Source of the DNA: Candidatus Tepidiaquacella proteinivora
GTDB lineage: Bacteria; Bacteroidota; Ignavibacteria; Tepidaquicellales; Tepidaquicellaceae
DNA length: 64,000 nucleotides
Assembly (NCBI GenBank): GCA_013348845.1
Contig: CP054675.1
Span: 1,311,501 to 1,375,500 of the forward strand
Direction: 5' to 3'
The notes under the pieces are model-generated. The model made no database searches and was not told where the DNA came from. It saw only the letters and a program-made list of their open reading frames with translations. Shown here piece by piece: positions 36,117 through 47,558 of this stretch; position 1 is the stretch's first letter; each line of letters starts with the position of its first letter. The translations under genes were made by a program, and so were the position numbers.

Positions 36117-36761
36117 TTATTTTAGAAGATTCAAACCTTCAAGAGCTGAAGAGTCATCTGGGCTAATTAAAAGAACCTTTTTAAATAAAATTTCAGCTTC
36201 TTTTCCTTTACCGAGTTGATAACTCGTCCAGGCAAGCATAAGATTTGAATAATAATCAAAAGGATATAGATTTACAATTTTTTCAAAACATTCATAAGCT
36301 TTTTGATAATCAGGTCTGTAGTAATATATCAATCCAAGTCTATAAAGTACGATAGTATTATTGGGGTCAATTTTTAAAATCTCAATGTATGTATCAGCTA
36401 CTTTACTCCAATCTTCTATAGCGCTTAAAGGATAAGTATATCCTAACTTTGCTTCTATTGCATAAGGCATGAGATTCATAGCAATCTTATAATAGTCCAT
36501 CGATTCTGAATATTTTTTGTTTAAATAACATAACCAGCCAAGTCTAAGATTAATCTCATAGTTATTTGATAAGTAAACCTTTTTCAGAGCATCTATTGCT
36601 GCCGGGAAATTTCCCTCAGATTCATATTTATAACTCAACTTGAAAGCGTTCTGTAAATCATCATAAGGTACTGAAGATTCTTTTTGAGCGTTTATTCCTG
36701 ATGCAATAATGAAAACAGCAACAATAATAATTAAAGATTTTACTTTTTTTAAAAGAGCCAT
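36117..36761 (-). CDS. Secreted TPR-repeat protein
   Basis: 214 aa, last gene of the six-gene minus-strand operon. Signal peptide about residues 1-25 (SLIIIVAVFIIASGINAQ), then about five tetratricopeptide repeats (e.g. AAIDALKKVYLSNNYEINLR, ALYRLGLIYYYRPDYQKA-type units). Probably a periplasmic scaffold that binds a partner of the same operon. The start overlaps the preceding gene by 13 bases and has a good AGGAGG ribosome-binding site 5-6 bases upstream. Confidence 0.75.
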   Translation of the reverse strand: MALLKKVKSLIIIVAVFIIASGINAQKESSVPYDDLQNAFKLSYKYESEGNFPAAIDALKKVYLSNNYEINLRLGWLCYLNKKYSESMDYYKIAMNLMPYAIEAKLGYTYPLSAIEDWSKVADTYIEILKIDPNNTIVLYRLGLIYYYRPDYQKAYECFEKIVNLYPFDYYSNLMLAWTSYQLGKGKEAEILFKKVLLISPDDSSALEGLNLLK

Positions 36762-38086
36762 TTTATACCTCCTATAAATTTATGAATATAAATATTTTCA
36801 GTTGTTTTAATATTTTGAGAACTTGAAAAATATTTTGTTGATGTCATCTCCTGTGGATAGAATTGATACCTCAGTGACAATTCTAAATTAAAAGAAACTG
36901 GGAAAAGAAAAGTTAATTCATATTTGTATTTAATTTTCTCAGTATTATTATAAACAATGAAAGCCGAATTCTCATGATAGTTAATAATATCGCCAGAAGT
37001 GAAATTACTCTCAACCCAAACTGCATCTGAAATTTTTAAACCTGCTTTTGTGAAATATAAAAACCTTGTTATATAATTTTTGTCTCCATTGTCTTTATTC
37101 GAATGAAAAATATAATTGTTAACAAAATACAAATTTAAATTACCGAAAGGATACCAAACAATTGACAAAGAATTCTGAAGTTGGTGTGCATTATTTAATC
37201 TTGAAAAGCCAGCTGCAATTCCAAAATCAAAATGGCTAATTCTTTTGCCTAATTCAAAAGAAAACACATAATCATTAAAAGATTGTGTGATTTTATCAAA
37301 GTCGTTTTTACTAGGTTGTTTAATTATATCCTCTGTTTTTACATTTAAATAGTGAAATGAACCTGATAAAGTAAATCCCTCTCCTAAATATATGCTCGAA
37401 TTAATATAATATTCATTTTGAGATATACTTATATCAAAATTCCGAAAATTATTAGGTTGTATCTCAAACCGTTTTGTAAAATTAAAAGTATTATTAATAT
37501 ATCCATGAAATACTGTTATCCTTTCATCAAAACTGTGAATAAAATCAATATTAAAGTAAATCCCATTTTTAGGAATTATTTGTTCGCCGGATATTTGTTG
37601 ATTACCGGATATTTTTTTATTTTTCCATTTCTCATAGTCACCATTATACAAATATCCACCTTCCGTATAAATTCCTTTAAAAAATTTAGGTTGTTTGTAA
37701 TCTATTTTAGTTTTCAATGATGAGGGAAATTCTTTCGCTAAAATATTGGCATCATTAGTTAAACCGGAGAAAAGATAAGAATAATATAAATATTCCATTG
37801 CAATAGTATCATTCTTATTCATCAAAAGGGCTTTTTTAAAGTGCTGTATTGAAGACATATAATTTTTATTTTCATAATAAGCAATACCCACCCGCATTCT
37901 TAAATAATAAAAATCTATTCCTTTGCTAAAAGCACTATCGGCAATATCTATCATTTCATCATATTTTTTATTCTTAAAAAGTTCATAAGTTTTTATATCT
38001 ACAGATTTATCATAATTTTTATCCTGCGCAAAAGATAAACCTGCAATAAATAATAATATTATGATGATTTTTCTTCTGTTAAACAA
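36749..38086 (-). CDS. TPR plus outer-membrane beta-barrel protein
   Basis: 445 aa. Signal peptide (IIIILLFIAGLSFAQ), two or three TPR-like repeats (about residues 30-125: FYYLRMRVGIAYYENKNYMS), then a beta-barrel of about 300 residues with aromatic girdles and a terminal Phe (GGIKWLF). The architecture resembles YaiO-type outer-membrane proteins, but I cannot assign it with certainty. TTG start at 38086, overlapping the urea-transporter/M23 gene by 28 bases. As part of the PqqD/ATP-grasp operon it may export or anchor the operon's product in the outer membrane. Confidence 0.68.
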   Translation of the reverse strand: MFNRRKIIIILLFIAGLSFAQDKNYDKSVDIKTYELFKNKKYDEMIDIADSAFSKGIDFYYLRMRVGIAYYENKNYMSSIQHFKKALLMNKNDTIAMEYLYYSYLFSGLTNDANILAKEFPSSLKTKIDYKQPKFFKGIYTEGGYLYNGDYEKWKNKKISGNQQISGEQIIPKNGIYFNIDFIHSFDERITVFHGYINNTFNFTKRFEIQPNNFRNFDISISQNEYYINSSIYLGEGFTLSGSFHYLNVKTEDIIKQPSKNDFDKITQSFNDYVFSFELGKRISHFDFGIAAGFSRLNNAHQLQNSLSIVWYPFGNLNLYFVNNYIFHSNKDNGDKNYITRFLYFTKAGLKISDAVWVESNFTSGDIINYHENSAFIVYNNTEKIKYKYELTFLFPVSFNLELSLRYQFYPQEMTSTKYFSSSQNIKTTENIYIHKFIGGIKWLF

Positions 38087-40257
38087 TTTGCAATAAATGA
38101 TTTATTTTTAAAATTAACTTTAAAATAACAAATTCCTTTATTCGATATTTCAATATCAAAACTATATTTTTTCGTTTCTTTATTAAAGAATGATTTAACA
38201 ATTTCTGATTTCAGGATTATGCTTGTAGGGGAAATTTCATCATTCGCACTAAGATAATACAATAAATAATCTGCTTTTAAAAATATATAAAACGGAGCTA
38301 TAAAATCCTGTAAGAATAACCCTGCCTTGTTGTAAATATGATGTATTGCTATAGTATCATTAACCTGTAAATGATTATAGAAACCAAGCGGTACTTTATA
38401 AAATGCTAAGAAAAAATAGTACAACAACGATTTCTTACTACCAATAAAATTATAAAAATAAAAGACTTTATTATCATTAGTAAAATAAGCGTAAGAGTTT
38501 GTTTTCTTACAATAAATGTAAGAAATATTATAAATATCAGTAAATACCTCCCATTCTACTTTTTTCTTTCTCCCTTTTTCTTCGACTACAAACTGAAGTT
38601 TTTTTTGTGGATATAAATTAAATGAACTTTTCATAAATTCGTTCACTTCAAGATTAAACACTATTTCATTCTTACGAGGTCTTTCATAAGAATTATATTT
38701 AATTTGATTGTTAACCCTACTTAAATAAATACCAAATGGATAATCAATTGTTTCCGCCCCGACAACCGGAAGGGTTTGCAATTGAAAATGAATATGTGGT
38801 TCAGGAGAGCGGCCGGAATTACCGCAAGAAGCAATAACCTGCCCACCTTTCACATAAGCACCTTTTTGAACCTTGAAAGACCCGGGTTTTAAATGACTAA
38901 TCTGAGAATAAAAACCTTCTCCATGCCTTAAAATAATTGAATTCCCCCAATTTTCTTCAATATTAATTTTACCTATTGGATTATCCGGTATGCCATCAAC
39001 AATTTCTTCTACATATCCATCAGCGGGGGCTAATACTGCTTTATCATAACAATAGTAGTCTTCTAAAGCAAGACCTTGATTATTAAATGTCTTTCTATCA
39101 GAATCTATTATAACAAAATCATAAGCATATCTCCATTTGTCTTTATGTGTAATATCACCATTATGAGATTGTGATACTACCCATTCACCATAAAATGGTA
39201 ATCTGATCGAATAATATACCTGATTTCTATAACGATGATTATTATTCACAAAATTATAGAGATTAGTCTCCGGTGAATTCATTTGAATATAGACTTCAGA
39301 AAGTTTAGCGGATCTGTAAAATCTGGATTTAACTACAAGTAAAAATAAAAGCACCGTAACAATAAACGGAAGTGAATAAACTATTAATCCCCATATAGAA
39401 AAAATTCTGTTTGTAGCAAGAAAAATTATCGCGGTAACAGGTGTAAGTACAATTGACCATATATAAGTAGATACTGAGGGAATCATAAAGTATCCCCCTA
39501 TTGCAATAGCGGTAAGAATAAAATTAAAACCAACATAAGCAAAAATGAGTTCAGGATAATTAAGACCAATTAGTTTAAAAAAGTAATAAACGGAATAATA
39601 TCCAATTAAAGATAATGTAAATGAAATTCTCGAATAAAAAAGCAATCCTATTGCTATCAAAAATCCAGCAAATACTTTATGGGGAAAGAAAATAATAGAG
39701 CCAATAGAAGAGAAATAAATTCTGATAGATTCGACAATTTCAAAACTACGAATCCATAAATATTTATCCAATAGTTCTTTACCACCTAACTGATAAACAT
39801 AATTAATAAAATATATATCTCTGTTAGCAAGTTGAATCAAATTAACTTCTTTAATTGCAAGCGAAAGCAACCAGAAGGAAAATAAAAACGGTAAACTTAA
39901 GTAAGGAAGCGAATATTTAGTGAGAAAATTTTCTAAACCAATTGTAATAAAGAAACAAAAAATGGAACTTAAAATAATAAATAAAACTAAAATCCAGTTT
40001 GCTTCGAGCCCAATACTAATACCAATACCAAGCAAAAGAGAATTAAAACCATAATAACCTTTTTTTATGCTAAATCTGTCAAATCCCAATAAATCAGCAG
40101 TAATATTAGCAGTAATTAATGCAATTAACCCACATAATCCGGAAAATGGTTCTAAAAATGTAATTGCTAAAATAATTATTGCAAAAAAAACTTTGTCAGA
40201 AAAAAATATAATTGAATAACTATTTAAAATCGCTCTTATATGTTCTCTAATGCTCAA
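38059..40257 (-). CDS. Urea-transporter-like membrane domain fused to M23 peptidase domain
   Basis: 732 aa. Residues about 15-315 are a polytopic domain of the bacterial UT family (LNSYSIIFFSDKVFFAIIIL start; KKGYYGFNSLLLGIGI, the conserved GLyGFN..L.G loop). Residues about 365-510 are a LysM-less M23/LytM-type domain (THKDKWRYAYDF, then VLAPADGYVEE, GNSIILRHG, CGNSGRSPEPHIHFQL with the HxH zinc site). A further ~220-residue beta-rich domain follows. TTG start at 40257. The peptidase would face the periplasm. The operon links it to a LysA-like decarboxylase and an ATP-grasp enzyme. Actual substrate (urea, amide, peptide) unknown. Confidence 0.8.
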   Translation of the reverse strand: MSIREHIRAILNSYSIIFFSDKVFFAIIILAITFLEPFSGLCGLIALITANITADLLGFDRFSIKKGYYGFNSLLLGIGISIGLEANWILVLFIILSSIFCFFITIGLENFLTKYSLPYLSLPFLFSFWLLSLAIKEVNLIQLANRDIYFINYVYQLGGKELLDKYLWIRSFEIVESIRIYFSSIGSIIFFPHKVFAGFLIAIGLLFYSRISFTLSLIGYYSVYYFFKLIGLNYPELIFAYVGFNFILTAIAIGGYFMIPSVSTYIWSIVLTPVTAIIFLATNRIFSIWGLIVYSLPFIVTVLLFLLVVKSRFYRSAKLSEVYIQMNSPETNLYNFVNNNHRYRNQVYYSIRLPFYGEWVVSQSHNGDITHKDKWRYAYDFVIIDSDRKTFNNQGLALEDYYCYDKAVLAPADGYVEEIVDGIPDNPIGKINIEENWGNSIILRHGEGFYSQISHLKPGSFKVQKGAYVKGGQVIASCGNSGRSPEPHIHFQLQTLPVVGAETIDYPFGIYLSRVNNQIKYNSYERPRKNEIVFNLEVNEFMKSSFNLYPQKKLQFVVEEKGRKKKVEWEVFTDIYNISYIYCKKTNSYAYFTNDNKVFYFYNFIGSKKSLLYYFFLAFYKVPLGFYNHLQVNDTIAIHHIYNKAGLFLQDFIAPFYIFLKADYLLYYLSANDEISPTSIILKSEIVKSFFNKETKKYSFDIEISNKGICYFKVNFKNKSFIANCLTEEKSS

Positions 40258-40270
40258 ATTCTATATTTTA

Positions 40271-41632
40271 TTATTTCTTTAGCTTCAGATGTTCAGGAAC
40301 TGATTCGATTGAGTTAATCATTTTTGTCGTTTCACTTTGCCTTATAACATAAACATCACCTTTTGTAGAAATTAAAACAACTCTTGGTCGCAAAGTTATA
40401 AATTGCATCCATTGAGTCATATTGTAAGCCCCTATTCTACTTATGACTACATTATCACCTTTTTTCAGTGGTGGTAATGAAACAGATTCTCTTAATTGAT
40501 CAATATTCATACAAAGCGGACCGTAAAGTACAGTATTTTCATAATGATGAGAAAAATCCTGGGCAGGGGTAATTTTATGTTCATACCAGAAAGATGTAAA
40601 AAGAATATTAACACCTATATCAAGTATTGTTGCATTTCTGCCATCGGAAAGTTTTTTATTTGCTACTACAGTACCAATTAAGCTCCCCGCATCATCAATC
40701 AGTGCTCTTCCTGTTTCAAGAATTAAAACAGGAAGGTTAGATGGTTCTATTTGCGAATTAATTAATGCTGATGTAATAGCTTCTGCAAAATCATCAAATG
40801 ACGGTGAAACATCAGTACCGGTAAGGTATGAACCCTTAAGAGTATTTTTAGAAGAAAAGCCACCTCCTATATCAATGTATCCAATACTATGATTGAATTT
40901 TCGTTTCAGACTTACTGCTAAATCAGCAAGTTTAGAAGCAGCAATAGCATAAGCTGAAGGTGAAAGAATAAAAGTACCTATATGAGTATGAATTCCAACA
41001 AGACTTAATTTTTTACTAAGCATAATTCTGTTTAATGCTTCCCATGCTTCACCATTTTCATAATTGAAACCAAACCTATCCCAGATAGGATAAATACCGG
41101 TATCCATATTAACTCTAATAGCGACCTTTGGTTTCTTTTTATGTTTATCAGCAATTTCTAATAATGTAAAGAGTTCATCAAAATGGTCAATATGTATATA
41201 AGAACCATTATCAATTGCGGTAATCAAATCACTCTCTGATTTATATGGTCCATTAAAAATAATCTTATTACCTGGCACACCGTTCAAGATTGCTTTTTCG
41301 TATTCGAAGCCGGAAACAACCTCCGCCCAGGAACCTTCCTGATGAAAGATATTACATACTGCGTTTAAATAATTTGTTTTGTATGACCAGGCAAACTGAA
41401 CCTTAGGATATCTTGTCTCAAAAGCCCGCTTTGCTTCGGCAAAGGTTTCCCTTATAGTTTTTTCAGAAATAACAAAAAGTGGAGATCCATATTCTCTAAC
41501 CAGTTCTTTTACAGGAATATTATCAATATGCGTTATTGGTTCGAATTCGGTTTTTGTTCCGAATTTACTTGAAATTCCAATACTTATTTTCCTGATAATT
41601 GGTCTTTCAAAAGTTAATTTTTTTGTTTTCAT
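40271..41632 (-). CDS. LysA-like fold-type III PLP-dependent decarboxylase
   Basis: About 453 aa. The PLP TIM-barrel contains FAWSYKTNYLNAV (Schiff-base Lys), GIHTHIGTFI, YIDIGGGFSS and the C-terminal barrel LETGRALIDDAGSLIGTVV, with GPLCMNIDQL at the site of the DAP-decarboxylase Cys. It belongs to the Orn/DAP/Arg decarboxylase-2 family, but the sequence is more diverged than housekeeping LysA and the gene sits behind an ATP-grasp ligase and PqqD. The ATG at 41632 (MKTKKLTF) is used because the upstream one (41677) would overlap the ATP-grasp gene by 32 bases and lacks homologous-looking sequence. Substrate unknown. Confidence 0.8.
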   Translation of the reverse strand: MKTKKLTFERPIIRKISIGISSKFGTKTEFEPITHIDNIPVKELVREYGSPLFVISEKTIRETFAEAKRAFETRYPKVQFAWSYKTNYLNAVCNIFHQEGSWAEVVSGFEYEKAILNGVPGNKIIFNGPYKSESDLITAIDNGSYIHIDHFDELFTLLEIADKHKKKPKVAIRVNMDTGIYPIWDRFGFNYENGEAWEALNRIMLSKKLSLVGIHTHIGTFILSPSAYAIAASKLADLAVSLKRKFNHSIGYIDIGGGFSSKNTLKGSYLTGTDVSPSFDDFAEAITSALINSQIEPSNLPVLILETGRALIDDAGSLIGTVVANKKLSDGRNATILDIGVNILFTSFWYEHKITPAQDFSHHYENTVLYGPLCMNIDQLRESVSLPPLKKGDNVVISRIGAYNMTQWMQFITLRPRVVLISTKGDVYVIRQSETTKMINSIESVPEHLKLKK

Positions 41633-41645
41633 AATTAATAATAAT

Positions 41646-42695
41646 TTATAATTCTGCGTAAAGAGATAACTTTTCAAACTCTTCTATGTCAGTAATTAAA
41701 TCATAAGAATACCGTATGAAAATTTTACCGACCTGATATTTTTTAAATGGTTTTACTTCAATACCAAGAGCAAGTTTTACTAAAGCTTCAGGTAAGTTTT
41801 GCCCTGCACCAACAGATAAATATACCCAGGCTGGTAAGCGTGGATTGATTTCAACAAGGTAATATTCATTACTTTTTGTTTTTATAATCTCTAATTCCAT
41901 ACCACCTCTCCATTTAGTCTTTCTTATTAGTTTCTTCGTCATTCTTATTAAATTATCGTCTGATAATGTTATACCAGCCCATGCTTTTCCTTTGTCAGTT
42001 ATATAAAGTTTTCTCATTGGTACTGCACCTATGGTGTTTCCTTTGCCATCACCAAGAGCAACAACATTTACTTCAGTACCGGAAACATATTGCTGAATAA
42101 TAATTGGGAAACCCCATTTAGCAGATATTTTCCTTAAATATGTTATCGCTTGCTCTCTATTATAAGAAAGTTCCGCTTCATAAAATTTACCTTTAACATA
42201 AAAAGGATACTTAATGAATTTCTCAACTTCACCTAAATCTTTTTCTGAAAATATTGCTCTGCTTTCAGGAACTTTTACCCCATATTTTTTCCCAAATTCA
42301 GGGAGATTAGATTTATGTCGTTCTTCATATTGCTCAAGAGTTGGTAAAAATGTTTTTATCCCCATTTTTTCAAGTTTATCAGCTGCTTTCATAAATGTAT
42401 AAAGTTCAGCATCAAAATTTGGGATAAGTACATCTATGTTTTCAATATTATTTATATATTCCAATCTTTTAATTAACACACCAGACCCGGCAGTTGGGTA
42501 AGGAATATGATATGATTTCTTAACTAAATTATGCATATAAATACCGGGTTCCAAATTTTCATAAGCGAGGCCAATTATTTTAGCACTAAAAAAATCAGAG
42601 TCAAGAACACCTCTTATAAATGGGATACCAGGTCCAGGATTATCAGTATTATTTAACCCTGTTGCTGCAATTGTAATACGCTTTTTACTCATCAA
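41646..42695 (-). CDS. ATP-grasp ligase (carboxylate-amine ligase type)
   Basis: 349 aa. An N-terminal pre-ATP-grasp Rossmann segment (RITIAATGLNNTDNPGPGIP) is followed by an ATP-grasp fold with PFYVKGKFYEAELSY, IIQQYVSGTEVNVVALGDGK and the metal-binding C-terminus MELEIIKTKSNEYYLVEINPRLPAW (split here only by description; conserved E...NPR). Such enzymes form amide bonds using ATP and a carboxylate. Overlap of 11 bases with pqqD-like and 13 bp to the decarboxylase. Acceptor unknown; a peptide bound by the PqqD-like protein is a reasonable guess. Confidence 0.8.
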   Translation of the reverse strand: MMSKKRITIAATGLNNTDNPGPGIPFIRGVLDSDFFSAKIIGLAYENLEPGIYMHNLVKKSYHIPYPTAGSGVLIKRLEYINNIENIDVLIPNFDAELYTFMKAADKLEKMGIKTFLPTLEQYEERHKSNLPEFGKKYGVKVPESRAIFSEKDLGEVEKFIKYPFYVKGKFYEAELSYNREQAITYLRKISAKWGFPIIIQQYVSGTEVNVVALGDGKGNTIGAVPMRKLYITDKGKAWAGITLSDDNLIRMTKKLIRKTKWRGGMELEIIKTKSNEYYLVEINPRLPAWVYLSVGAGQNLPEALVKLALGIEVKPFKKYQVGKIFIRYSYDLITDIEEFEKLSLYAEL

Positions 42696-42930
42696 TCAAA
42701 ATCTTAAATGTCCTCAATGAACTGATAAAATCATTTAGTGATTTTTCTAAAACAGTTTTACTTACCTCATATTTTTCTAATAATATTTTTATAATGTCAT
42801 CTAAATCTTTACCTTTTCTTAAATATTCGATTATTTCCAATCCAATCGGGTTTAATGAGTATGAATCACCTGTAGAGGTATCGTAAACAAAACCCGTTTC
42901 GCTGAATGCGACTTTTTTATTTATTTTCAT
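42685..42930 (-). CDS. PqqD-family small peptide-binding protein
   Basis: 81 aa. It has the PqqD/RRE-like pattern: VAFSETGFVYDTSTGDSYSL, NPIGLEIIEYLRKGKDLDD, then IIKILLEKYEVSKTVLEKSL and a last helix FISSLRTFKIL. PqqD-type domains bind leader peptides of RiPPs or act as peptide chaperones. Here it is the first gene of the six-gene operon. I looked in the 300 bp upstream and saw no short ORF with leader-peptide features. The overlap with the ATP-grasp gene supports joint action. Confidence 0.75.
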   Translation of the reverse strand: MKINKKVAFSETGFVYDTSTGDSYSLNPIGLEIIEYLRKGKDLDDIIKILLEKYEVSKTVLEKSLNDFISSLRTFKILIDE

Positions 42931-45013: not shown

Positions 45014-45088
45014 GGAGCCGTAGTTCAGTTTGGTTAGAACGCCTGACTGTCACTCAGGAGGTCGCGAGTTCGAGTCTCGTCGGTTCCG
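45014..45088 (+). tRNA. tRNA-Asp (GTC)
   Basis: The acceptor stem GGAGCCG pairs with CGGTTCC (45081-45087), discriminator G at 45088, CCA not encoded. The anticodon stem CCTGA/TCAGG encloses the loop CTGTCAC, anticodon GTC, so Asp. T-arm GCGAGTTCGAGTCTCGT is normal. A terminator follows at 45099. Its 3' end (AGTCTCGTCGGTTCCGC) is repeated twice downstream at the ends of the GIY-YIG units. Confidence 0.95.
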
Positions 45089-45098
45089 CAAAAATATA

Positions 45099-45122
45099 AA
45101 CCCGTACTTTTACGGGTTTTTA
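45099..45122 (+). terminator. Terminator after tRNA-Asp
   Basis: CCCGTA / TACGGG stem (45101-45106 and 45111-45116) with a 4-base loop, followed by TTTTT. It is 10 bp after the tRNA and 5 bp before the first GIY-YIG ATG. Confidence 0.85.
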
Positions 45123-45126
45123 ATTT

Positions 45127-45393
45127 ATGGCTTATTTCACTTACATCCTCAAAAGCAAAGTCAAAGACAGATATTATATTGGCTTTTGCGAAAATCTATT
45201 TAAAAGACTTGAAAAACATAATTCCGGAAACAGCAGATCAACAAAAGCATATATCCCCTGGGAAATTGTTTATTGGGAAAAGTACCACATAAAAAAAGAT
45301 GCCATCAAAAGAGAAAGACAACTAAAAAAATTGAAAAACAAAAAGTATATCGATAATTTAATCAAAAACCACTCAGGAGGTCGTCCCGAGTAA
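45127..45393 (+). CDS. GIY-YIG nuclease-family protein, copy 1
   Basis: 88 aa. A single GIY-YIG domain as in UvrC N-terminus and YhbQ: FTYILKSKVKDRYYIGFC (Y-I-L ... Y-I-G), Arg in the first helix (NLFKRLEKHNSG), and Glu in WEIVYWEKY. The C-terminus HSGGRPE is encoded by tRNA-Asp sequence (ACTCAGGAGGTCG) running into palindrome copy 3; the stop TAA lies in the palindrome centre. It follows the tRNA terminator directly, so expression depends on its own promoter or read-through. The linkage suggests a mobile or homing role, but that is inference. Confidence 0.85.
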   Translation: MAYFTYILKSKVKDRYYIGFCENLFKRLEKHNSGNSRSTKAYIPWEIVYWEKYHIKKDAIKRERQLKKLKNKKYIDNLIKNHSGGRPE

Positions 45394-45399
45394 TCGGGA
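45384..45399. repeat. 16-bp palindrome, copy 3
   Basis: TCCCGAGTAATCGGGA: same arms as copies 1 and 2, centre GTAA. It sits between ACTCAGGAGGTCG and AGTCTCGTCGG, replacing the CGAGTTCG T-loop bases of the genuine tRNA-Asp. Confidence 0.9.
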
Positions 45400-45427
45400 A
45401 GTCTCGTCGGTTCCGCAAAAATATAAA

Positions 45428-45449
45428 CCCGTACTTTTACGGGTTTTTA
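45428..45449 (+). terminator. Terminator, repeat copy
   Basis: Identical copy of the CCCGTA/TACGGG hairpin plus T-run, here between the two GIY-YIG genes. A third copy would begin at 45755 but is cut off after AAACCC. Confidence 0.8.
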
Positions 45450-45453
45450 ATTT

Positions 45454-45720
45454 ATGGCTTATTTCACTTACATCCTCAAAAGCAAAGTCAAAGACAGATA
45501 TTATATTGGCTTTTGCGAAAATCTATTTAAAAGACTTGAAAAACATAATTCCGGAAACAGCAGATCAACAAAAGCATATATCCCCTGGGAAATTGTTTAT
45601 TGGGAAAAGTACCACATAAAAAAAGATGCCATCAAAAGAGAAAGACAACTAAAAAAATTGAAAAACAAAAAGTATATCGATAATTTAATCAAAAACCACT
45701 CAGGAGGTCGTCCCGAGTAA
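45454..45720 (+). CDS. GIY-YIG nuclease-family protein, copy 2
   Basis: Identical 88-aa product to the gene at 45127, in the second 327-bp unit; no substitution was seen in the coding sequence. Identity at DNA level indicates a very recent duplication, gene conversion or an assembly artefact. The same GIY-YIG residues (Y, YIG, Arg, Glu) are present, and the same tRNA-plus-palindrome C-terminal coding end. Confidence 0.82.
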   Translation: MAYFTYILKSKVKDRYYIGFCENLFKRLEKHNSGNSRSTKAYIPWEIVYWEKYHIKKDAIKRERQLKKLKNKKYIDNLIKNHSGGRPE

Positions 45721-45726
45721 TCGGGA
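45711..45726. repeat. 16-bp palindrome, copy 4
   Basis: Same as copy 3 (centre GTAA), closing unit 2 and followed by the third AGTCTCGTCGGTTCCGC fragment. Confidence 0.9.
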
Positions 45727-45863
45727 AGTCTCGTCGGTTCCGCAAAAATATAAACCCATGTAATGTACCCATTAGATCAAATAAATAAAAAATGATTTAA
45801 TTTAAGAAATTACTTTTAAAATCCCTTTTTATAAAATACAACTTTTTATATTTAAATTCTGAC

Positions 45864-47558
45864 TTAAATATTTTTATTATACATTGTAAATTGCAATGTG
45901 AAATCGAAATATTCCCCTTTAGTGTAATGGTAGCACATAACTCTCTGAAAGTTAGGGTTGTGGTTCGAATCCACAAAGGGGAGCCATTTTGAACGGTTTT
46001 TCAAACCTATATAAGAAGGAACAAAAGAGGGTGATACTGGCTCACCGCCAGCAGTCGCCCTCGCAGTTCCACCGCTCTGGCTTTGTGCTGGCAGGTTCGC
46101 TCTGAAATTCGGCAGGTAAAACAGATTAACTCCTATCTCGTCTTTCCCGTAAATTATGTCTTTAATAAGGTATTGAAACAAATAAGGTTTTTCTTCGTCT
46201 TTAATTTCTTGAAGTCGCTCAACAAAATTTCTTAAATTCTCTAAAACAATTTTTGCTTCAAATTTTTCCTTCATTTCTTTCTGAATTGAAAGTCCCACCC
46301 CCTCTAAATCAAATTCTAATATCTTTTTCTCTTGCTCTAATCCTGATAATTCCTTCCTCACTGTTGGGAATAGACGGTCATCTGATTCAGATAAAAAAGA
46401 AACCAATTTTTTGATTTTGCTATTAAGTTCATCAATCCTTGTCTGTATCTGTCTTTCTTTTTCTCTCAAAGGAGACAATCTCTGTTCCTCATCGTGATTT
46501 ATCCTTCTGACAAGTTTTTCAATACTTGATTCATCTTTGCTTATTTCAACTAATTTTTTTGTTATAAATTCTTCAACCCTGTTAGCATTTACATATTTGA
46601 TACTGCAACTTTGCCAATCGTGTTTACAGGTTTTGGTACAACGATAATAATAAATGTATCTTTTACCAGTTTTCTCTTGCTTCAAAGTATAAGAAGGTGT
46701 CATAACCGAATCGCATTCTTGACACTTCAATAAACCACCTAACAAAAAAGGTCTTTTTATTTTTGTTTCAGGTCTAATCTGAATTCTCCGTAAACTCTGA
46801 ACCTTCAAAAACATTGCTTCAGGGATAATTGCTTTATGAACACCATCAAATAATTTGCCTTTGTGTTCTATTTTTCCAATATAAATTGGATTTCGTAGAA
46901 TATTATCAATTGAACCTTTACAAAAAATGTTCCCTTTCTTCGTTTTGTAACCGAGTTGGTTTATTCTTCTTCTGGTTTCAGCAAGCGATTGTGTCTCAAG
47001 AAAAATCTGAAATATTTTCTTAATTCCTTCTGACTCATTTTCATCTATCTCTAATTTTTTATCCACATTCTTATAACCATAAGGCACTAATCCACCGTTC
47101 CACAATCCTTTTTCTCGTCTCTGTTGCATTTTGTCTTTTGTCCTTTCGGCTGTAAGTTCTCGTTCAAATTGTGCGAAAGTAAGTATTATGTTCCGTAGTA
47201 ATCTCCCAGACGGAGAGGAAGTATCAAAATTTTCTGTAACAGAAATAAAAGAAACTCCATACTTATCAAAAAACTCAATGAGGTTATAAAAATCCTTTGG
47301 TGAACGGGTAAGACGGTCAATTTTATATGTGAGAATACAGTTTATTTTACCTTCTGTTATATCCTTAAATAATTCCTGTAATGCGGGTCTTTCTAAACTT
47401 GCACCTGAATAACCAGCATCACTATAAATTTTATAAACTTCTAAATTTTCCTGACTTCTGATAAAAGATTTTATTTTCTCTGTCTGTGCTTCGCAAGAAT
47501 TAAATTCCTTTTCAGCCTGATTATCAGTTGATACTCTTGTATAAATTGCACATTTCAT
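45864..47558 (-). CDS. Large serine recombinase (resolvase/invertase family)
   Basis: 564 aa. The N-terminal resolvase domain has catalytic Ser10 (AIYTRVSTDNQAE), YSDAGYSGASLERPAL and TYKIDRLTRSPKDFYNL. A recombinase domain (KGLWNGGLVPYGYKN, SIDNILRNPIYIGKI) and a zinc ribbon (LKCQECDSVMTPSYTL, CTKTCKH) are followed by a coiled coil (about residues 350-440). The C-terminal ~40 residues (KWLPFVDSNHNPNFQ...) are antisense tRNA-Gln translation. A GC-rich stretch at 46020-46110 encodes QSGGTARATAGGEPVSPS. It likely integrated the island carrying the genes to the right. The real C-terminus might end earlier in other alleles. Confidence 0.9.
   Translation of the reverse strand: MKCAIYTRVSTDNQAEKEFNSCEAQTEKIKSFIRSQENLEVYKIYSDAGYSGASLERPALQELFKDITEGKINCILTYKIDRLTRSPKDFYNLIEFFDKYGVSFISVTENFDTSSPSGRLLRNIILTFAQFERELTAERTKDKMQQRREKGLWNGGLVPYGYKNVDKKLEIDENESEGIKKIFQIFLETQSLAETRRRINQLGYKTKKGNIFCKGSIDNILRNPIYIGKIEHKGKLFDGVHKAIIPEAMFLKVQSLRRIQIRPETKIKRPFLLGGLLKCQECDSVMTPSYTLKQEKTGKRYIYYYRCTKTCKHDWQSCSIKYVNANRVEEFITKKLVEISKDESSIEKLVRRINHDEEQRLSPLREKERQIQTRIDELNSKIKKLVSFLSESDDRLFPTVRKELSGLEQEKKILEFDLEGVGLSIQKEMKEKFEAKIVLENLRNFVERLQEIKDEEKPYLFQYLIKDIIYGKDEIGVNLFYLPNFRANLPAQSQSGGTARATAGGEPVSPSFVPSYIGLKNRSKWLPFVDSNHNPNFQRVMCYHYTKGEYFDFTLQFTMYNKNI
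45913..45986 (+). tRNA. tRNA-Gln (CTG), CCA encoded
   Basis: The acceptor TCCCCTT pairs with AAGGGGA, discriminator G, then CCA at 45984-45986. D-arm GTGTAATGGTAGCAC. Anticodon stem TAACT/AGTTA with loop CTCTGAA, anticodon CTG. T-arm TGTGG-TTCGAAT-CCACA. The whole gene lies antisense within the 3' end of the serine recombinase ORF, so it probably holds the attachment site of the island to its right. Confidence 0.9.

Follow-up and report, generated by a model that had tools for sequence, protein, structure and literature searches.

What might be made, or modified, by a run of six genes that sets putative ligation and decarboxylation enzymes beside a membrane-bound peptidase and two apparently secreted proteins? 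The question is raised by a locus in Candidatus Tepidiaquacella proteinivora, whose genome is a single contig of 2.4 Mb. The stretch of DNA that we analysed, here called the window, is 64,000 nucleotides long (contig CP054675.1, positions 1,311,501 to 1,375,500). On its minus strand, at 36117-42930, lie six open reading frames (ORFs) in the order PqqD-like protein, ATP-grasp enzyme, LysA-like decarboxylase, urea transporter (UT)-M23 fusion, tetratricopeptide repeat (TPR)-barrel protein and TPR protein. Pfam matches and ORF positions agree with a preliminary description of the locus as to the place, the single strand and the families. That description also proposed that the genes form one unit, a pathway that makes or modifies a peptide or a decarboxylated amino-acid conjugate and places it in the envelope. 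We find that the six genes are one conserved unit, and we tentatively suggest that its product is a decarboxylated side-chain conjugate that passes through the envelope.

A conserved six-gene unit

The neighbourhood was compared across 69 loci, which are not all independent lineages and in which several absent genes reflect contig ends. Searching with the UT-M23 protein gave 31 named loci, together with family and phylum relatives. The named loci are labelled Ignavibacteria, Bacteroidales, Cyclobacteriaceae, Paludibacteraceae and, in one case, Marinimicrobia, and the named relatives at 82% and 59% identity to the window's protein are from Ignavibacteria metagenome-assembled genomes (MAGs). In the relatives' maps the gene order is that of the window, the TPR-barrel gene being the variable element, and all recognised family members are collinear and on the same strand in the 69 loci, with mostly short or overlapping junctions. 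UT-M23 is present in all 69, the decarboxylase in 67, ATP-grasp in 65, PqqD in 64, TPR in 63 and the barrel in 47; the barrel and TPR genes overlap by exactly 13 bases in 35 of 45 loci. This arrangement is far beyond chance, and the single unit proposed earlier is borne out by the retained order and strand.

Co-occurrence points the same way. Among 395 sampled Bacteroidota genomes, a strong ATP-grasp match and a full-length UT-M23 protein are found in the identical set of 34, and one extra genome has a weak, partial ATP-grasp match only; the ATP-grasp gene is therefore not routinely found without the other genes. In one genome (G442, the source of locus L037) the unit is divided. The ATP-grasp gene, with PqqD and the decarboxylase, sits on a contig of 36,706 bases, away from the envelope genes UT-M23, barrel and TPR on a contig of 78,154 bases. 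Here the enzyme genes and the envelope genes have come apart naturally as two modules, both of which are kept although unlinked. The gene divergent from PqqD in this genome (L189:6886-9198) encodes a 771-amino-acid membrane protein with the look of a spermidine synthase, and its position may be due to chance. A MAG named Alphaproteobacteria (L057, SACF01000015.1) has the operon and its neighbours in a layout nearly identical to that of a Bacteroidales MAG (L056) and is therefore probably misnamed or misbinned.

Taken as longest ORFs, the junctions in the window are, in operon order, -11, -32, +13, -28 and -13 bases. With the ATG starts that are conserved in relatives (ATP-grasp at 42692, LysA-like at 41632), they become approximately -8, +13, +13, -28 and -13. 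The overlaps reported in the preliminary description are thus real, but there are three of them, not four, and the other two junctions are gaps of 13 bases.

A FigC-like decarboxylase beside an ATP-grasp ligase

The third gene (40271..41632, minus strand, from its probable ATG start; the longest ORF begins with a TTG at 41677) encodes an alanine-racemase-fold, pyridoxal phosphate-dependent decarboxylase (PF02784/PF00278, Orn_Arg_deC_N/C) that we describe as FigC-type. Two NCBIfam models match it below their cut-offs: FslC (NF041039, 234.1 bits against a cut-off of 500 bits) and lysA (TIGR01048, 217.7 bits against 297.9 bits). By these scores it would be a relative of FslC and not a strict member. 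Its nearest match among solved structures is N-citrylornithine decarboxylase (4.1e-59), followed by diaminopimelate (DAP) decarboxylases (1.9e-39) and BtrK (4.8e-24).

In FigC the specificity helix has exchanged its Asp or Arg residues for Thr, Thr and Tyr, and Met stands in place of the acidic residue that follows the catalytic Cys, changes that fit the pocket to a larger, side-chain-conjugated amino acid; FigC, SbnH, AcsE, MccE and BtrK have been grouped together as acting on conjugated amino acids (PMC7857480). The operon decarboxylase has the specificity-helix Thr/Tyr and the Met after the catalytic Cys of the FigC type. More broadly, the specificity helix of the operon family is shortened by two residues and carries Thr and Tyr, as in FigC, and CM and GAYN are likewise shared. 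T361, W364, Y365 and C389-M390 are invariant in the family, W364 standing where FigC has its second Thr. Canonical LysA proteins from six carrier genomes have LLRP, with Arg in the helix, mostly CE, and GAYG, whereas the operon copies shown have LFTS or LFTA for LLRP and CM for CE, the DAP-binding Arg being gone in all of them. The earlier label "LysA-like" was right as to family, but these specificity residues make "FigC-like" the better name.

Could the gene nonetheless encode a plain DAP decarboxylase that serves lysine synthesis, with the operon no more than a chance grouping? No other LysA-type gene was found in the window's genome, which speaks for this explanation. Yet the operon copies in all 44 carrier genomes score 207-250 bits, under the LysA cut-off, and 31 of the 44 have a separate LysA above it. 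The operon-negative relatives G001 and G008 have no LysA match either, so that the family seems likelier to have lost lysine synthesis than to use this gene as a replacement. Given a strictly conserved operon whose decarboxylase has lost both the CE motif and the Arg that binds DAP, we find a chance grouping around a lysine enzyme scarcely credible. Ordinary lysine synthesis was rejected on the sub-cut-off scores, the separate LysA copies and the FigC-like residues, and, judged by those residues, the operon enzyme is not a DAP decarboxylase.

The gene before it (41646..42692, minus strand, probable ATG start; the longest ORF begins with a TTG at 42695) encodes an ATP-grasp ligase (ATPgrasp_Ter, PF15632, 4.1e-11). 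The fold model (predicted local distance difference test, pLDDT, 86.6) has 2pn1 as its nearest structure (Z 28.4, 2.7 A, 289 residues) and also matches the L-amino acid ligase 3vot (Z 25.2) and PylC (4ffr/4ffl, Z ~25), with many biotin carboxylases at similar Z. K168 and E282-x-N284 are invariant in the family, as would fit an active ATP-grasp enzyme. Ligation and decarboxylation chemistry would follow from the two families and their active-site residues, and the FigC-type active site backs the preliminary description's pairing of a ligase with a decarboxylase as modification enzymes.

A urea-transporter fold fused to a peptidase

The fourth gene (38059..40257, minus strand) joins a urea-transporter-fold membrane domain (residues ~1-312; PF03253, 1.7e-55) to an M23 metallopeptidase domain (~346-525; PF01551, 2.8e-14) and a beta-rich C-terminal domain (~526-732). 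In its model (pLDDT 85.5), UT matches reach Z ~37 and M23 matches Z ~14; the C-terminal domain at 526-732 had no Pfam match and was barely covered by the fold search. The metal site of the M23 domain (H371, D380, H455, H488 and H490) is invariant, and hence intact. At one locus (L126:10922-13197, genome G062) the gene is split into two overlapping frames, by a frameshift or a sequencing error.

On which side of the membrane does the peptidase lie? The Kidd blood-group residue of UT-B, N/D280, is next to the extracellular pocket (PMC10541013). The Kidd loop aligns with residues 231-235 of UT-M23, which would put the C-terminus, and hence the M23 domain, inside. An N-in/C-in charge pattern is seen in 39 of 39 members, with a mean net charge of +6.1 in the putative inside loops and -1.8 in the outside ones. 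The M23 domain is thus predicted to be on the cytoplasmic side, and the envelope processing earlier assigned to it is not upheld. A fusion peptidase predicted to be cytoplasmic is of interest in itself, M23 enzymes being known as wall hydrolases.

Since most M23 enzymes are peptidoglycan hydrolases, the operon might instead serve envelope or peptidoglycan remodelling, a periplasmic M23 domain acting on the wall and the enzymes making a wall substituent. Separate M23 relatives in the carrier genomes do have signal-like or lipoprotein-like N-termini, and approximately 14 Bacteroidales loci have mrdA- and rodA-like genes upstream of the operon. This neighbourhood is restricted to one lineage, however, and was set aside as a link to the wall, while the UT-B homology and the charge bias predict the wrong side of the membrane for a periplasmic hydrolase. 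We consider wall remodelling improbable.

The membrane domain differs in part from ordinary urea channels. Among the positions with a pore role in urea transporters (Phe, hydroxyl, Glu/Gln), the Phe and hydroxyl positions are kept and the second-repeat Glu/Gln is replaced; the Thr of LPxxTxPF is changed to Ser. Urease alpha was matched in seven of the 44 carriers, with a full-domain match in one only. Since it was not found in the other 37, ordinary urea use is unlikely, and urea uptake with urease was rejected. In a broader form of uptake and breakdown, a small amide or peptide would be imported by the barrel and TPR proteins, let in through the UT domain and then worked on by the M23 domain and the enzymes. 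Transport through UT channels is passive and can run in either direction, and the window's genome has a PqqD-like gene between an oligopeptide transporter and a dipeptidase, as might suit such a route. But in known cases the pairing of an ATP-consuming ligase with a subsequent FigC-type decarboxylase serves biosynthesis (PMC7857480), and this, with the scarcity of urease, leaves uptake distinctly improbable in our view.

The PqqD-like protein and the search for a precursor

The first gene (42685..42930, minus strand) encodes an 81-amino-acid PqqD/RiPP recognition element (RRE)-like protein (PF05402, 45.2 bits, cut-off 23.4), RiPP standing for ribosomally synthesized and post-translationally modified peptide. 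Nearly all of its relatives in the 64 loci abut or overlap the ATP-grasp gene. The family matches peptide-chaperone models, with lasso B1 models matched in 15 of 15 members, and the nearest solved relatives are the lasso B1 structures TbiB1 and TfuB1, both weak matches. Against PqqD_rel_X of the HPr-rel-A system (TIGR04353) the window copy scores 35.8 bits, with a cut-off of 35, and no HPr-kinase-like protein was found among the operon genes scanned.

These matches invite a RiPP-like pathway, in which the PqqD protein would bind the leader of a distant precursor, the ATP-grasp enzyme and decarboxylase would modify it and the cytoplasmic M23 domain would cut it before export. The predicted location of the M23 domain in the same compartment is consistent with this, as is MccE, an alanine-racemase-fold decarboxylase that acts on a peptide conjugate (PMC7857480). 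However, a search of the 400 bases upstream of PqqD, and of the gaps that part the ATP-grasp and decarboxylase genes, found no conserved small ORF in the loci, in agreement with the earlier remark that no leader-like precursor ORF was seen upstream. Moreover, PqqD-domain genes also adjoin transporters and peptidases without an obvious precursor. A ribosomal peptide is therefore kept only as a rival; its precursor might be encoded at a distance, and we judge the RiPP-like pathway unlikely but worth keeping in view.

The Bacteroidales gaps covered by this search hold low-complexity repeats; in L039-L065 the ATP-grasp/decarboxylase gap (~40-270 bases) often consists of short tandem repeats that are genome-specific. 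The window's genome has a second PqqD-domain gene, between oligopeptide-transporter-like and dipeptidase-like genes (L034:6244-10118; G000:C1 ~1076243-1080117), a trio that loosely parallels the operon and in which a precursor is not obvious. At least 10 loci of the window's class have a secreted protein of ~280 amino acids with a type IX sorting domain that precedes or lies near PqqD. Such proteins, FG-GAP-like in some cases, lie upstream of PqqD among L131-L152, and a relative is found inside a Bacteroidales locus (L059:7319-8137). This secreted protein could be a substrate, but it is not universal.

Secreted proteins and a possible metal link

The last two genes complete the envelope module. 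The fifth (36749..38086, minus strand) encodes a protein with an N-terminal TPR region, a weak match, and a predicted C-terminal outer-membrane beta-barrel; it has a signal-like N-terminus and a C-terminal aromatic residue. The sixth (36117..36761, minus strand) encodes a TPR protein (TPR_2, 1.8e-17), also with a signal-like N-terminus. Both look secreted. Many relatives of the window's class have no TPR-barrel gene between UT-M23 and TPR, and many have a different secreted, barrel-like protein (~280 amino acids) after TPR, so that the outer-membrane part appears to be kept in altered form.

Directly upstream of the operon, in 24 of the 69 loci, is a gene for an AraC regulator with an N-terminal heavy-metal-associated (HMA)-like domain, mostly CxCC, that the HMA model detects weakly. 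When 23 operon-associated copies were compared with 29 free ones, all of the former fell into a single clade (support 0.93); they come from Ignavibacteria, Bacteroidales and G062. Other members of the HMA-AraC family commonly adjoin HMA proteins and P-type ATPases. A dedicated regulator of this kind, from a single clade, makes a metal role for the operon possible. The upstream genes of other lineages include an extracytoplasmic function (ECF) sigma factor with an LTXXQ/Metal_resist protein, a ZupT-like ZIP transporter (L127) and, at L128, a YtkA protein beside a receptor for which the TonB copper receptor is the best NCBIfam match, below cut-off. The window locus has none of the AraC regulator, ECF/Metal_resist, ZIP or YtkA/receptor genes; the HMA-AraC regulator is part of the system in many genomes and absent from the window's lineage. 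Resistance-nodulation-division (RND) metal efflux, suspected upstream in L141 and L151 from gene sizes, was checked and is not present. These neighbours suggest a metal role. That the operon is specifically a copper- or zinc-related metallophore export system, combining the ATP-grasp enzyme and FigC-type decarboxylase with AraC control and a cytoplasmic-face M23 domain on a UT pore, is speculative and rather unlikely.

A proposed pathway

We suggest, as a quite possible reading that we stop short of calling probable, that the operon is a dedicated pathway of side-chain ligation, alpha-decarboxylation, M23 trimming on the inner side of the membrane and transfer through the envelope. In the cytoplasm the ATP-grasp enzyme would couple a carboxylate to the side chain of an amino acid (free, in a peptide or in a protein), and the PqqD-like protein would hold the substrate as its partner. 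The FigC-like decarboxylase would then remove the alpha-carboxyl of the conjugated amino acid to give an amine. Either the product or a small by-product may cross by way of the inner-membrane UT-fold protein, whose cytoplasm-facing M23 domain may trim a peptide portion; passage to the surface would be finished by the TPR protein and the outer-membrane barrel. The conjugate logic of the preliminary description is thus retained, while its ribosomal peptide is demoted and its M23 domain moves to the other side of the membrane.

Several points weigh against this proposal. The modelled ATP-grasp fold is no guide to the substrates, and 2pn1, the structure nearest to it, is of no known function. Where there is a PqqD domain a peptide substrate is usually to be expected, and a search near the genes found none. 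Finally, the UT pores of relatives pass only urea-sized molecules, so that the pore may not carry the conjugate itself.

Neighbouring features

Upstream of the PqqD start, the operon is flanked in the window by a divergent gene for a 416-amino-acid transporter-like protein. An Rfam scan of the window found two tRNAs only, at 45014-45088 and 45913-45983; between them, on the plus strand, lie identical 88-amino-acid GIY-YIG-endonuclease-like ORFs in tandem duplication (45127-45393 and 45454-45720; region 45014-45983). None of the PADLOC models matched the six operon proteins at 1e-5, and an anti-phage defence system was rejected on this basis. A phage origin was likewise rejected, the three operon proteins tested having no PHROGs match.

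Comparison with known systems

A literature search for the gene combination found no published system of this composition and no named pathway, as the preliminary description had supposed. The likenesses to known systems are partial. PgaA and the AlgK/AlgE-type exporters combine a secreted TPR domain with an outer-membrane barrel, as the operon does; the likeness is one of architecture, and the operon has no polysaccharide synthase. UT-M23 has the full fold of the urea transporters dvUT and UT-B (Z ~37) but differs in its fusion to M23 and a further domain, in its altered pore residues and in the general absence of urease. Like PqqD/RRE-dependent RiPP pathways, the operon has a PqqD-type leader-binding domain beside modifying enzymes, but it has no conserved local precursor that we could find and no radical SAM, lanthipeptide or lasso enzymes.

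The butirosin genes BtrI, BtrJ and BtrK share a three-gene logic with the operon, a small protein, an ATP-grasp enzyme and an alanine-racemase-fold decarboxylase. BtrJ is reportedly an ATP-grasp ligase and, with BtrK, a precedent for ligation followed by decarboxylation. BtrK is the weaker relative, as its structural match indicates; BtrI is a carrier protein, whereas the small protein of the operon is of the PqqD family, and the Btr system has no envelope module. Three of 36 sequences of the PqqD-like family have T or C in place of the candidate phosphopantetheine serine (TG-[DE]-S), and with this variability and the family assignment a Btr-type acyl-carrier pathway was rejected. As a whole, then, the operon would belong neither with LysA nor with the Btr system nor with RiPP pathways that have a local precursor.

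The closest likeness is to the rhizoferrin pathway of FigA/FigC (FslA/FslC), in which side-chain amide ligation is followed by an alanine-racemase-fold decarboxylase with the same helix and Cys-loop features (PMC7857480). The ligase there is an NRPS-independent siderophore (NIS) synthetase and here an ATP-grasp enzyme, citrate is not implicated for the operon, and PqqD, UT-M23 and the TPR-barrel are found only in the operon. What is strictly conserved across Bacteroidota (Ignavibacteria, Bacteroidales and Cyclobacteriaceae) and in a Marinimicrobia MAG is thus a six-gene pathway without a described function, which offers a testable enzymatic logic and possibly a new class of metal-linked secreted compound. 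In its workings it would most resemble FigA/FigC with an envelope export module added, a novelty that would lie at the level of the system and be built from known kinds of enzyme.

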